In this document: positions 3,301 through 42,456 of the stretch, in pieces
Numbering within the stretch: the first letter of the stretch is position 1
How the letters are laid out: the number at the start of each line of letters is the position of its first letter
Assembly (NCBI GenBank): GCA_009846005.1
Contig: VXYL01000057.1
Coordinates: forward strand, 1-64,000
Direction of reading: 5' to 3'
DNA from: Gammaproteobacteria bacterium
GTDB taxonomy: Bacteria; Pseudomonadota; Gammaproteobacteria; Pseudomonadales; Azotimanducaceae
DNA length: 64,000 nucleotides
Program-made: the position numbers and the translations under genes
Notes under the pieces: generated by a model
Database searches by the model: none
The model's input: the letters and a program-made list of their open reading frames with translations, nothing else
What the model was told of the DNA's origin: nothing

Positions 3301-4869
3301 GTTGAAGGCGGCGCAAACCAACGGGTGCAACTGAATCGCGTTGCCCTCGATGAGCAGCGGCTCAAAGGCCTGGATGCCCAGCCTGTGCAGGGTCGGCGCC
3401 CGGTTGAGCAGCACCGGATGCTCGCGGATGACCTCCGCGAGGATGTCCCAGACCTCCGCGGTCTCCCGCTCCACCATGCGCTTCGCGGACTTGATGGTGG
3501 TGGCCAGTCCGCGTGTTTCAAGCTTCCCGAAGATGAACGGCTTGAACAGTTCCAGCGCCATCTTCTTCGGGAGTCCGCATTGGTGGAGCTTCAAGGTCGG
3601 GCCCACGACGATGACCGTCCGTCCCGAGTAGTCCACCCGCTTGCCGAGCAGGTTCTGGCGGAACCGGCCTTGCTTGCCCTTGATCATGTCCGCGAGAGAT
3701 TTCAGCGGGCGCCGGTTGGATCCCGTGATGGCCCGACCGCGGCGGCCGTTGTCGAGCAGCGCGTCGACCGCTTCCTGCAGCATCCGCTTCTCATTGCGCA
3801 CGATGATGTCCGGCGCATTGAGGTCGAGCAGGCGCTTTAGGCGGTTGTTGCGGTTGATCACCCGACGGTAGAGATCGTTCAAGTCCGAGGTCGCGAAGCG
3901 CCCGCCGTCAAGCGGTACCAGCGGTCTGAGATCCGGCGGCAGCACGGGCAAAACGGTGAGGATCATCCACTCCGGCTTGTTGACCTTGCCGTTGGCGCTC
4001 GACTGGAACGCCTCCATCAGCTTCAGGCTCTTCGATAGTTTTTTCCGCTTGGTCTCCGAAGTCGACGTGCGAACCTGTTCGGCGACCTGTTCGACCCGGC
4101 TCTCGAGGTCCAACTCCGACAGGAGTTCACGAACCGCTTCGCCGCCCATCATCGCCGTGAATTCGTCACCGTGGCGTTCTATCTCCTCGTAGTACTCCTC
4201 GTCCGTGAGTAGCATGCCGGCCTCGACACCCGGCACCGTACCCGGGTCCGTGACGACGTGGTTCTCGAAATAGAGCACGCTTTCGACGGATCGCAGCGTG
4301 CCGATGTAGCGTCGCTCCACCCATGCATTCGGCGCGAGCCCCGGACGGCCGTCCTGGGATGCGACGTGGTCCTCACGGCAGGTGTACCGTTTCGACAGGT
4401 GCGACACCATGTCTCCCGGCGCATAGCGCTGACCCGCCTTCCACCCGGTCAGCTTGCCGTGGCTGTCCTCGCCGTAGCCCGCGTCGAGCAGCAAACCGAT
4501 TCGGGAAGGCAACGATTTGAGGAACCAGATGTGGGCGACGGGGCTCGCCAGTTCGATGCGCCCCATGCGTTCCCGGCGAACCTTCGAAAGGGTCACCTCC
4601 ACGCCGCACTTTTCGCACATCACACCCCGATGCTTGAGCCGCTTGTACTTGCCGCACAGGCACTCGTAGTCCTTCGTGGGACCGAAGATCCGCGCGCAGA
4701 ACAAGCCGTCCCGCTCCGGCTTCAAGGTGCGGTAGTTGATGGTCTCGGGCTTTTTGACTTCGCCGTAGGACCACGAGCGGATCATCTCCGGCGACGCCAG
4801 TCCGATCCGCAGGCTGTCGAACTCGTCCGGTGCGCTCTGGCCCCTAAACAGATTGATGAGGTCTTTCAT
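325..4869 (-). CDS. rpoC: DNA-directed RNA polymerase subunit beta'
   Basis: Largest subunit of RNA polymerase; it carries the catalytic magnesium. The protein has 1514 residues, about 100 more than E. coli RpoC (1407). The N terminus follows the gammaproteobacterial pattern, with zinc ligands C70, C72, C85 and C88. The catalytic NADFDGD motif is residues 523-529, and the C terminus retains the conserved stretch around [13 protein letters not shown]. The excess is explained mainly by two insertions. One of about 60 residues (130-190) follows GLLLD in the clamp region and looks like a CBM5/12 module. One of about 50 extra residues lies in 1238-1299, between RRLVIT and LIPKWRQ. It lies 47 bp downstream of rpoB in the same orientation, the usual rpoBC operon. 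The reading frame is intact through both insertions. Confidence 0.98.
4300..4482 (-). other. CBM5/12-like (chitin-binding ChtBD3-type) insertion inside RpoC
   Basis: Residues 130-190 of RpoC have no counterpart in E. coli RpoC, where GLLLD runs almost directly into the ERVLYFES stretch. The insert has the spacing typical of CBM5/12 modules: W143, Y149, G152-D153, V155, Y162, C164, H168, P176 and W183 near the end. In that family these positions hold the small beta-sheet and the aromatic sugar-contacting face. Binding of carbohydrate here is not implied; the fold may serve another purpose in the clamp. Confidence 0.6.
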
Positions 4870-39763: not shown

Positions 39764-40888
39764 TCAGGCCTCGGCGCCAGTCGGATTCGCGTACTCGTTC
39801 AGGGGCGGCGGCAAACGCGCGGGATCTCGCGGCACGCCTAGCCATTGGCAGTAGCCCAGATAGGTTGCGACGTAATCGCGCATCATGTCCCCATAGACGG
39901 CCATGCCGCGTCCCGCGGCCTTGGCAACACCCCGGCCGAATACCACGGCGAGCGCTTCGGCAAGCACGGGATCGCGCAGATCCCGGGTCAGCCCGCCCTC
40001 GCCGATGGCGATCAGCGTACGCACGACCTGGAGTACGTCGTCGGCATGCGCCATGGCGTACTTGAGATGATCCAGGGCATAGGTCACATGGCGCGCCTTG
40101 TCGGCCAGCGCATGACCGTAGATGAAGCGCTCCGCGTCGTTGTGGGCGTGGCGGCCAAGGTACTTGTAGAGCGTCATCGCGAACGTCCCGCGCATGATCA
40201 GGAGGTAGACGACGGCTTCGGTCCAGCCGCCCCGGCTCTCCAGGATCATCCGGTTGACCATGCCCGGCCCTTCCAGTCCGAGGCCGCCGCCGTTGGCGAG
40301 CGCTCGCTTCCGGAAGCACTCGTAGTGGCGGGCAGCGTCGAAACTGGCCGTCGCGAGAAACTGCTTGACCTCGTGGTAGCCGTAGGACATTTGATGCTGC
40401 CACCCCGTGATCGTCTCGATGTCGACGTTCGCGTAGCCGACGAGTTCGGTGCAGACCTGGCAGACCGCGTGCTCGACGTCATCCGGGAGCGGCTCGATGG
40501 TGTCCCAAGGCACGTCCGTGGCCGGCGCCCACCGGCGCTGGATCGCCTCCTCGTAGAGATCCGCGGCGCAGTCTGCCCAGAGTCCGGCCTTGTCGCGGAT
40601 CGAATAGCCCACCGGCGGCATGCCCCGGCGCGGAACCGCACCGCGGGGATTGCGGCTCTGATCGGCCCATTGGGTCGGCGTCTCGCCGTAGATGCCGACG
40701 TTTAAATCCCCGAGTCGGAGTCCCGCCTTGCCGGGCTTCACCCGAACGCCCCATTGGCGGGTCTTGTTCATCCAGTTGTACTTGGGCTCGAAGGTCCGCT
40801 TCTCGTCGGACGCCGTCGACTTGGGCGGCACCGGTTTCTGCGCGGGCTGGTTCGGCGACGAGGGTTTCGCCGCCGGCTTGTTTGCCAT
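39764..40888 (-). CDS. ferritin-like protein with lost diiron ligands
   Basis: A 374-residue paralogue of the upstream protein; long stretches are shared, such as DLYEEAIQRRWAPATDVPW and CFRKRALANGGGL. The carboxylates that bind iron in the partner are replaced: V142, A185 (in FDAARH), G234 and K264 (in ADKARH) stand where the partner has E120, E163, E213 and E243. The histidines of both motifs (H188, H267) remain. It is therefore probably a structural subunit of a heteromer, like the beta subunit of bacterial multicomponent monooxygenases. A Pro/Lys-rich N-terminal extension is present. The start is ATG 40888. Confidence 0.75.
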   Translation of the reverse strand: MANKPAAKPSSPNQPAQKPVPPKSTASDEKRTFEPKYNWMNKTRQWGVRVKPGKAGLRLGDLNVGIYGETPTQWADQSRNPRGAVPRRGMPPVGYSIRDKAGLWADCAADLYEEAIQRRWAPATDVPWDTIEPLPDDVEHAVCQVCTELVGYANVDIETITGWQHQMSYGYHEVKQFLATASFDAARHYECFRKRALANGGGLGLEGPGMVNRMILESRGGWTEAVVYLLIMRGTFAMTLYKYLGRHAHNDAERFIYGHALADKARHVTYALDHLKYAMAHADDVLQVVRTLIAIGEGGLTRDLRDPVLAEALAVVFGRGVAKAAGRGMAVYGDMMRDYVATYLGYCQWLGVPRDPARLPPPLNEYANPTGAEA

Positions 40889-40905
40889 CGGTGGAAATCC
40901 GCCGC

Positions 40906-41967
40906 TTAGGCGGCTTCCTCGATCATCTGCGCAACCCGGGAACGACCGTTCTCGAAGCGCTCCCCGAATCCCGCCGAGATGACGCGCTTGCGGTACTCCT
41001 GAAGCTGACGGCGGCGGATCGCGATGATCTTGTTCATGCCGTCGTCGAAGTTCTCCTTGCCGCCGCCGAGGATGATCGCCATGGACTCGGAAGTCGGCGT
41101 CAATTGCCCGACCGGGTTCGCGGCGCCGATCAAGCCGCCCTCGGCCTCGTCGAGGTAGCAGTGAATCTCTTCGCGGCGTTCCGGCGCGGTCTCCGACATG
41201 TAGCGCAAGTGCATGACGCCGAACGCCACGTGGCGCGCCTCGTCCTGGGCGCAGAGCCGGTAGATGACCTTCTCGGCTTCGTTCTGCGCCATCAATTCGC
41301 CCATGCGGAAGAGGGTCAGCACGGCGCCCTCGCCGGACACGTGGAGCCTCGACGACATCTCGGTGAAGTCCCGGGACAGATCGATGCTGCCGACGAAGCC
41401 GGAGGTGGCACCCGTGGCCTGCATGAGACCGCCGCCGTTGGCGAGTGCGCGCTTGCGGAACACGTCCATGTGCCGGGACTCGTCCATCACCTGGGCGAGC
41501 AGCACCTGGCGCGGCTCGTAGAAGTCCGGCGTGGTCAGCGACACCCAGCGGGCAGGCACGTCGCCGGCGACGAACTCCACTTCCGTGAGAAACGTGGCGA
41601 GTTGGCACTCCGCCTGCTCGACGTCGTCGGGCAGCGGTTCGATGGTGTGCCAAGGCACGTCGGTGGCCGAACTCCATTGCCGTTGCAGGGCTTCCTCGTA
41701 GAGAAACGACGCATTGTCCAGCCAGATTTCGTTCTTGCTTCGCACCGCGTAGGCGCCGATCCGGTACGACGCCGGTCGCGCCGCCGCGCCCCTGGCCCGG
41801 CCGGTGAGATTGTCGCTGACCTCCGGCGCGTCGCCGTAGTCGCCGATGCTGATATCGGCGATGGTCAAACCGTACTTGCCGGGCTCCGCGCGTGTCTCCC
41901 ACGGTCCCGTGCGGTCCATCCAGCCGAGATCGAGTTCCCGCTCGGCACCGTTCGCGGCTTCGCTCAT
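40906..41967 (-). CDS. ferritin-like diiron oxygenase candidate
   Basis: A 353-residue protein of the four-helix ferritin-like superfamily. Candidate ligands are E91/E92, E120, E163-x-x-H166 in VMDESRHM, E213, and E243-x-x-H246 in AQDEARHV: the full E/ExxH/E/ExxH set. AGGAG precedes the ATG at a normal distance. It begins an operon with the ligand-less paralogue (17 bp on), two SCP2-like proteins and more. The substrate is unknown. Oxidation of a lipid is a guess from the SCP2 neighbours. Confidence 0.8.
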   Translation of the reverse strand: MSEAANGAERELDLGWMDRTGPWETRAEPGKYGLTIADISIGDYGDAPEVSDNLTGRARGAAARPASYRIGAYAVRSKNEIWLDNASFLYEEALQRQWSSATDVPWHTIEPLPDDVEQAECQLATFLTEVEFVAGDVPARWVSLTTPDFYEPRQVLLAQVMDESRHMDVFRKRALANGGGLMQATGATSGFVGSIDLSRDFTEMSSRLHVSGEGAVLTLFRMGELMAQNEAEKVIYRLCAQDEARHVAFGVMHLRYMSETAPERREEIHCYLDEAEGGLIGAANPVGQLTPTSESMAIILGGGKENFDDGMNKIIAIRRRQLQEYRKRVISAGFGERFENGRSRVAQMIEEAA

Positions 41968-42041: not shown

Positions 42042-42069
42042 TTGACCCCCAAGTTGCCTTGTGTAGACT
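42042..42069 (+). promoter_or_regulatory. plus-strand promoter, module B
   Basis: TTGACC (42042-42047), 16-base spacer, TAGACT (42064-42069). The same pair with the same 16-base spacing recurs at 42223-42250. It points away from the ferritin operon, into the 351-bp region 41968-42318 that otherwise has no gene. Confidence 0.55.
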
Positions 42070-42074
42070 CTCCG

Positions 42075-42153
42075 TCGGAGTGCGAGTCCGCAGTGTCTGG
42101 CAGTGCCACGACATCGACCGAGAGCCGAACCCTTCGCGGGGTTCGGGCTCTTT
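42075..42153 (+). ncRNA. candidate small RNA, module B
   Basis: Starts near 42075 after the TAGACT box and ends at a terminator hairpin (42122-42153; 11 pairs with one bulge, then TTT). On the minus strand bases 42065-42118 align without gaps to the 5' half of the tRNA-like gene at 42319-42418, with the CGC anticodon arm kept. The 3' half of the tRNA is missing here. It may be a decayed duplicate or a small RNA in its own right. Confidence 0.35.
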
Positions 42154-42222: not shown

Positions 42223-42250
42223 TTGACCTCGACGGTGCCCCATGTAGACT
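42223..42250 (+). promoter_or_regulatory. plus-strand promoter, module A
   Basis: TTGACC (42223-42228), 16-base spacer, TAGACT (42245-42250). A transcript from here would cross the complete tRNA-like gene on its antisense strand and end at the terminator at 42424-42456. Confidence 0.55.
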
Positions 42251-42318
42251 TCCCGTCGACCGCTTCTACTGAGCGGCCACCTAAGGGCGGCTGGAACTGG
42301 CCTGCCAGCCGCAGGGAT

Positions 42319-42418
42319 TGGTGCCGAAGGAGGGACTCGAACCCTCACGGCGTGCGGTTTGGGCGCAGAGGCCGGCGGAATGCGAATCCGCTGTGTCTAC
42401 CAGTTCCACCACTTCGGC
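42319..42418 (-). tRNA. class II leucine-type tRNA with CGC anticodon
   Basis: A 100-nt cloverleaf. Acceptor GCCGAAG/CTTCGGC, D-arm GGTGGAACTGGTAGACAC and discriminator A with encoded CCA match tRNA-Leu, close to E. coli leuX. The anticodon stem GCGGA/TCCGC is perfect and the loop is TTCGCAT, giving CGC, which pairs with the Ala codon GCG. The variable arm is about 27 nt with two helical segments, longer than usual. The T-arm GAGGG-TTCGAGT-CCCTC is intact. C3-G70 replaces the G3-U70 pair needed by alanyl-tRNA synthetase. It could be a pseudogene, a decoy or a recoding tRNA. Confidence 0.7.
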
Positions 42419-42423
42419 CAAGG

Positions 42424-42456
42424 GCCCGAACCCTCCATGGGTTCGGGCTTCTTATT
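42424..42456 (+). terminator. plus-strand rho-independent terminator, module A
   Basis: Perfect 10-bp stem (42424-42433 with 42439-42448), 5-base loop, then TTCTTATT. The T-rich tail exists only on the plus strand. An equivalent sits at 42122-42153. Confidence 0.7.

Follow-up and report, generated by a model that had tools for sequence, protein, structure and literature searches.

Leucine-type tRNA genes with foreign, mainly alanine-codon anticodons and a predicted antisense RNA in two genera of Gammaproteobacteria

What use could a bacterium make of a tRNA gene that joins the body of a leucine tRNA to an anticodon for an alanine codon? Such a gene, termed tRNA-LeuX below, lies on the minus strand of the window—by which we mean the whole stretch of 64,000 nucleotides analyzed here—and its features and neighbors are collected in Table 1. 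The initial annotation described a tRNA-Leu body, a CGC anticodon, the absence of a G3-U70 pair and a variable arm of about 27 nt, all of which were borne out by the analysis. What it had missed is a family of such genes in two genera, together with an apparent promoter and terminator on the opposite strand.

Table 1. Features of the tRNA-LeuX locus in the window
Feature	Position	Strand	Details
tRNA(LeuX), 7/5 class II	42319..42418	-	encoded CCA, A73, U8, A14, A15-U48, G18G19
Anticodon CGC (reads GCG), loop TTCGCAT	42382..42384	-	
Variable region, 28 nt including U48	42347..42374	-	proximal stem CGGC/GCCG, distal TGCG/CGCA
Terminator-like hairpin, 10 bp	42424..42456	+	42424-42433 with 42439-42448, then TTCTTATT; abuts tRNA 5' end
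Sigma70-like promoter site TTGACC-N16-TAGACT, facing tRNA	42223..42250	+	-10 ends 68 nt from tRNA 3' end
Hairpin, TGGCC in loop (GGCCA in tRNA sense)	42287..42312	+	within predicted antisense RNA
Decayed second unit	42042..42150	-	hairpin 42120-42150; D arm and CGC anticodon arm at about 42077-42117
Promoter-like site of decayed unit	TTGACC 42042-42047 / TAGACT 42064-42069	+	
Upstream gene, 142 aa	42466..42894	-	tRNA direction; no Pfam match

A leucine-type tRNA gene with an alanine-codon anticodon

The gene is a full class II tRNA of the leucine type with an anticodon for alanine codons. The tRNA model RF00005 matched positions 42322-42418 of the minus strand with 53.1 bits (the span in Table 1 includes the encoded CCA), and the five normal tRNA-Leu genes of the same genome scored 52.7-58.7 bits. 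The 5' half reads as the acceptor strand GCCGAAG, UG, a D stem GUG/CAC and an anticodon stem GCGGA/UCCGC that encloses the 7-nt loop UUCGCAU; it is followed by the variable region, a T stem GAGGG/CCCUC with the loop UUCGAGU, the acceptor strand CUUCGGC, A73 and CCA. The acceptor stem (GCCGAAG/CTTCGGC) is the same as in tRNA-Leu(GAG) of this genome, the anticodon is CGC in place of any leucine triplet, and the 3-70 pair is C-G, not the G3-U70 of tRNA-Ala. Although the minimum-energy fold contains the acceptor, anticodon, variable and T stems, the folding energy by itself is unremarkable (z -0.95, with 33 of 200 shuffled sequences folding equally well), so that the case for a tRNA rests on homology and covariation. 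ARAGORN did not report the gene and found none in loci L038 and L039; other family copies were missed or labeled Ala or '???'.

The neighborhood offers a possible source of transcripts, as transcription of the 142-aa gene could run into tRNA-LeuX. Neither this protein nor three further window proteins on the same side had a Pfam match, and no synthetase domain was found among six proteins scanned beside the gene. Two neighboring genes on the minus strand (353 and 373 aa, window 39764-41967), also without a Pfam match, encode proteins with a common segment, TDVPWxTIEPLPDDVE. The decayed neighbor copy with a CGC arm, which the initial annotation had proposed, does exist and has its own hairpin and promoter-like site; a remnant resembling it is present in a relative (L042/L071).

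A family of copies with foreign anticodons in two genera

The search for relatives combined three approaches. A nucleotide search of 97 genomes gave matches in 90, most of them partial and taken as ordinary tRNA-Leu. A pattern joining a Leu-type D arm to an NGC anticodon was found at 19 places in 13 of the 206 genomes of the host's taxonomic family, confined to two of its 37 genera, and the reversed pattern had no match in the same genomes; in 390 genomes of the order, an even draw from a larger group, the pattern matched the window's own genome only, and the 372 genomes from other families gave no match. As the pattern sees NGC anticodons with a strict D arm only, copies with CAC or GGA came from reading the loci and from the covariance model R1, which was applied to 16 genomes of the window's genus and nine of the second genus. 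Altogether, 15 of the 25 genomes carry tRNA-LeuX, with 26 copies among them, a count that leaves aside the decayed second unit of the window and loci L073 and L074. The anticodons are CGC (14 copies), GGC (8), CAC (2) and GGA (2); alanine anticodons thus occur in 22 of the 26 copies and a leucine anticodon in none. CGC and GGC are each found in separate groups and in both genera, and GGA is represented by one copy per genus, both intact in appearance. The recurrence of CAC is weaker, because both copies carry a lesion (A18 for G18 in G002A, a shortened T loop in G014c); our weighting of the explanations is left unchanged, since the argument rests on CGC, GGC and GGA. The same body with foreign anticodons in other species and metagenome-assembled genomes (MAGs) rejects a random point mutation or an assembly error, in line with the initial annotation, which had argued against a single random change.

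Some copies stand alone, and others are arranged in tandem (three in G014 contig C207, two in G011 contig C17) or dispersed (four in G101). The array of three, at positions 35-720 of locus L105 (G014:C207), carries GGC, GGA and CAC, with the shortened T loop in the CAC unit, and the assembly has a run of N between the second and third units. In locus L092 (G101:C236), the 3' acceptor strand of a copy starting at about position 1495 is split by a small insertion, bounded by the inverted ends GTGCTCTGT..ACAGAGCAC, that resembles a miniature transposable element. About eight of the 26 copies are damaged (G011B, G000B, G101a, G014c, G097b, G099, G101d and G002A), and G007 is mildly so.

Six relatives share the locus beside the 142-aa gene, and the isolate prefixes of these MAGs presumably point to sponges. 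The anticodon is CGC in L070 (IRC1_bin_7), CGC and GGC in two copies in L069 (RHO1_bin_53), GGC in L071 (RHO3_bin_63) and CAC in L072 (COS4_bin_45); none of these four species shows the normal Leu anticodon that the initial annotation had allowed for in relatives. Only a decayed copy is left in L073 (277c_33), and L074 (SB0662_bin_58) has no tRNA. At the latter site (about 4660-4760), a hairpin that looks like a regular terminator for the 142-aa gene is followed by what is perhaps a remnant of the acceptor stem.

Comparison of the copies reveals the constraints of a tRNA. Across ten aligned copies, including the damaged G000B and G002A, 93.2% of 280 cells are paired and 11 of 28 pairs have changed on both sides, with the reservation that the copies are related and the cells are not independent events. 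The covariation score of 0.304 compares with 0.088 in shuffled alignments, was reached by 0 of 500 of them and fell to at most 0.082 with sliding partners; the distal helix of the variable arm is paired in only 65% of cells, partly through misalignment. Of the 24 copies then known, 23 were parsed (G014c was left out, and G101c and G101d were found later). Near-universal among them are U8, U33, G18G19, the T-loop TTCRA, A73 and CCA, the exceptions being A18 in G002A, U56 in place of C56 in G102, and the broken copies. In nearly all, A37 and the anticodon stem match those of translating tRNAs, and positions 32 and 57 vary only within limits permitted in tRNAs; the stems differ between copies, and the variable arm and positions 16, 17, 20, 59 and 60 of the loops vary freely. 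The variable region spans 24-32 nt, and C3-G70 is present in 22 of the 23 parsed copies, the remaining one (G101a) being broken there.

In an Rfam scan of 18 relative loci, tRNA was the only family matched, with 16 RF00005 matches in 14 loci at 45.7-54.4 bits; L040, L106, L108 and L130 had none at the gathering threshold, though R1 gave 93-117 bits there. A phylogeny of 60 sequences, built on 72 aligned positions from which the anticodon triplet was then masked, united groups C and D with G007 and G102 with a support of 0.999 and placed groups A and B elsewhere. The alignment is too short for the tree to favor either a single or a repeated origin of the copies. An origin from plasmids was set aside for want of any match in plasmids, as was one from phages, where the sole match was one of 33 bases to an annotated tRNA-Leu. 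The pattern also matched seven IMG/VR contigs, on six of which R1 gave 45-55 bits—far below most copies—and on L157 nothing; by eye, these tRNAs look different from the family. Contigs L159 (4702-4782), L155, L158, L160 and L161 hold Leu-like tRNA genes with odd anticodon arms, the one on L159 having a UGC (Ala) anticodon and a shortened T arm.

Promoter-like and terminator-like sites on the opposite strand

A promoter-like site facing the tRNA on the opposite strand was found in 14 of the 26 copies and a terminator-like hairpin beside the tRNA 5' end in 25. All six window-type copies carry the hexamers, spacing and distance listed in Table 1 (p <=0.015 each against 200 shuffles), and eight of the 11 copies of the second genus have TTGACC-N17-CATGGT at 63-67 nt (p 0.01-0.04). 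In group A, the hexamers are identical in all six copies and the spacer is variable. A weaker form occurs in G101a (p 0.435) and a different site in G010B (p 0.035); p values of 0.055-0.8 were obtained for G102, G007, group C (four copies less the one cut off) and two of the three copies of group B. These trials covered the 24 trailers of sufficient length, those of G101b and G014c being cut by contig ends. As a control, tRNA-sense promoters were sought in the same trailers and reached p <=0.05 in six of the 24 (G010A, G011A2, G048b, G099, G010B and G000B); in G010A and G011A2, the tRNA-sense site scores higher than its antisense counterpart, perhaps as the promoter of the next gene.

The hairpin lies 0-4 nt from the tRNA 5' end in these 25 copies and is broken in G009, with sequences that are unlike between groups. 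A second hairpin, in the trailer, bears GGCCA within or at the loop in groups A, C and D, G007 and G102 (GGCCG in the case of G101d), on stems that differ. Upstream of the tRNA, a strong promoter in the tRNA sense was seen in G007 only (p 0.005; p >=0.135 in the others, 25 tested). The nearest upstream ORF points in the tRNA direction at eight of the nine loci with a recognized ORF (13 loci were surveyed, four having no ORF by the filter used), so that the tRNA may be transcribed by read-through from the preceding gene. This arrangement suggests an antisense RNA of about 200 nt covering the whole tRNA in the window-type units and most of those of the second genus, which perhaps acts as a silencer of tRNA-LeuX; in the window, it would extend on the plus strand from about 42257 to about 42456.

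Charging, possible use and relation to known systems

Leucine identity in E. coli, as set out in section 12 of PMC9976931, depends on A73, A15-U48, G18G19, A20a and D/T-loop contacts, with the anticodon and the variable arm unneeded, and the same source describes C2-G71 as repelling SerRS. The window copy has A73, A15-U48, G18G19, U8-A14, the D/T-loop contacts, C2-G71 and, by our numbering, A20a. Charging by LeuRS is thus likely, and leucine would be favored over serine because A73, A15-U48, G18G19 and C2-G71 are all present; C3-G70 argues against AlaRS. Since ValRS uses A35, a base absent in 24 of the 26 copies, the CAC copies might also attract that enzyme. A search with PF09334 found five synthetase-like proteins in the window's genome, of which the protein on contig C49 is LeuRS and the other four, by size and score, are taken to be the Met, Ile, Val and Cys enzymes. 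A dedicated second LeuRS was rejected, as TIGR00396 identified a single one in 14 of the 15 carrier genomes, the exception with two being G101, which is 6% contaminated.

This genome has five normal tRNA-Leu genes (CAA, GAG, CAG, TAA and TAG). Of the two counterparts named in the initial annotation, tRNA-Leu(CAA) is thus present, and for alanine an ordinary tRNA-Ala(GGC) is there, with no CGC among the tRNA-Ala genes seen. A pattern for tRNA-Ala, which missed this GGC gene and is not exhaustive, found UGC in four of the 16 genomes of the genus. Genes for Ala(UGC), Ile(GAU), Asp(GUC) and Ser(UGA) were not seen among the tRNAs listed for the window's genome (G000), perhaps because of assembly gaps such as missing rRNA operons.

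The target codon is a common one, as the initial annotation had supposed: in 23 long window ORFs, GCG is the most frequent alanine codon, with 570 of 1308 occurrences and 44.1 per 1000 codons. No recoding was seen, and wholesale reassignment was discarded: when the LeuRS gene was compared with that of relative G004, GCG codons aligned to Ala in 23 of 34 cases and to Leu in none—a comparison of one gene pair, in which G004 itself carries a CGC copy. Because GCG is so common and no recoding was seen, a freely expressed, leucine-inserting tRNA-LeuX would be costly, and such a tRNA would have to be scarce or conditional.

On this basis, the explanation that we favor, and hold to be somewhat probable, is that LeuRS charges tRNA-LeuX and some leucine is inserted at alanine codons by a tRNA that is scarce or conditional and restrained by antisense RNA. 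LeuRS, whose E. coli counterpart ignores the anticodon, would load leucine onto the tRNA, which the ribosome would use at GCG; the sister copies would act likewise at GCC/GCU, UCC/UCU and perhaps GUG. An RNA started at the opposite-strand site would be complementary to the whole tRNA and end at the hairpin by its 5' end, keeping tRNA-LeuX low. The damaged copies and the sister species without the gene speak against this explanation, and they imply that tRNA-LeuX is dispensable. The convincing tRNA-sense promoter seen in G007 only, and the lack of a recognized synthetase beside the window copy, also count against it. A bolder form, which we regard as possible but rather doubtful, is a mistranslation switch: a leucine tRNA for alanine and serine (perhaps also valine) codons would be transcribed by read-through and silenced by the antisense RNA, whose loss would set off a burst of leucine misincorporation.

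An unlikely alternative is that the tRNA is charged with leucine but serves outside translation, for example as a donor of its aminoacyl group or in regulation, its foreign anticodon merely avoiding leucine codons. The abundance of GCG, too common for free misreading, fits this alternative, as do the nematode nev-tRNAs, which the accessible text of PMC4300185 describes as charged with leucine in vitro with no misincorporation detected in the proteome. Yet the T loop, U33, A37 and the anticodon stem are kept in nearly all copies as in translating tRNAs, the anticodons fall on four related triplets and are not scattered, and the six window proteins scanned include no candidate transferase.

We give the same low probability to the view that the copies are remnants of a repeat that duplicates, either silent or in decay, and have no function today. 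Decay is plain in the window's second unit, L073, G011B, G101a, G014c and G000B, the L074 site has no tRNA, and a good tRNA-sense promoter is confined to G007; against this, paired substitutions that compensate each other and the invariants of tRNAs are seen in both genera, and the RF00005 scores in the relative loci are near those of real tRNA-Leu.

Still less probable is that the real product is the opposite-strand RNA of about 200 nt, with the tRNA likeness inherited but not used as such. Promoter and terminator-like hairpin both point that way, and where the tRNA has decayed, in the window's second unit and in L071, the promoter-like site is still there, although the decayed copy of L073 retains TTGACC only. 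Wobble pairs, counted in the tRNA sense, also bear on the strand. Leader hairpins (26 copies) have 47 A.C and 6 G.U cells and trailer hairpins (23 copies) 34 and 15, an excess of A.C indicating that these hairpins suit the opposite strand; stem ends were counted as well, and there the flanks, rich in A or in C, contribute A.C cells; the trailer search picked a different hairpin in G003A, and the group C trailers (four were measured) point the opposite way (7 G.U, 5 A.C). The variable arms (5 G.U, 9 A.C) agree with the opposite-strand product and lie outside a simple strand picture. In contrast, the tRNA stems lean to the tRNA strand (10 G.U and 4 A.C in 460 cells), and the tertiary invariants are mostly kept. 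Finally, an extra tRNA-Ala, charged with alanine despite its leucine body and decoding correctly, would suit the prevalence of alanine anticodons and the lack of CGC among the ordinary tRNA-Ala genes seen (GGC in the window's genome, UGC in four relatives), but is very improbable given C3-G70, the long variable arm and the valine and serine anticodons on the same body.

Judging from the accessible parts of the sources cited, the nearest known systems are tRNA-ProX in idea, nev-tRNAs in identity and allo-tRNAs as class II bacterial tRNAs with many anticodons. The tRNA-ProX genes of Streptomyces and Kitasatospora (tRNA-ProA, ProN and ProT), for which the commentary PMC10365949 relates a proposal of deliberate mistranslation, likewise put several anticodons of other amino acids, alanine foremost, on one amino acid's body, and the same proposal is raised here. 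tRNA-LeuX differs in its leucine body, its class II form and its gammaproteobacterial hosts; the window gene has neither a proline body nor a neighboring ProRSx, with no synthetase recognized beside it and a predicted antisense RNA instead. The nev-tRNAs share the long variable arm, a foreign anticodon (Gly, Ile) and the charging with leucine predicted for tRNA-LeuX, whereas they are eukaryotic and read GGG and AUA, and the portion of PMC4300185 considered here describes no antisense arrangement. Allo-tRNAs are bacterial, with a long variable arm and many foreign anticodons, and links to transposons or toxin-antitoxin systems have been hypothesized for them; they have 8/4 or 9/3 acceptor/T stems and serine identity as presented in PMC7609411, unlike the 7-bp acceptor and 5-bp T stem and the leucine identity of tRNA-LeuX. 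Ordinary bacterial tRNA-Leu has the same body, D loop, A73 and A15-U48; tRNA-LeuX departs from it in never having a leucine triplet, in mostly lacking A35, in the length range of its variable region and in the hairpin at its 5' end. Control by antisense RNA, as in type I toxin-antitoxin systems, would call for an opposite-strand promoter, a terminator and complementarity; what is seen here is a promoter-like site in 14 of the 26 copies and a hairpin in 25. No bacterial case with a leucine body appears in the accessible parts of a review of mistranslating tRNAs (PMC11415595) or of a screen for alternative codes (PMC8629427), nor was such a family recognized in the literature within reach, which takes in few subscription papers.

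tRNA-LeuX thus reveals a blind spot of annotation, as ARAGORN misses or mislabels such genes. Few systems of encoded bacterial mistranslation are known, and the literature consulted describes proline-bodied (tRNA-ProX) and serine-bodied (allo-tRNA) cases; a leucine-bodied family aimed at a very common codon would widen this range. An antisense RNA covering the tRNA may also represent a form of control, one that is directly testable. Should the mistranslation switch be true, it would offer these bacteria a means of diversification under stress or constitute a module resembling a toxin-antitoxin system made of RNA only.
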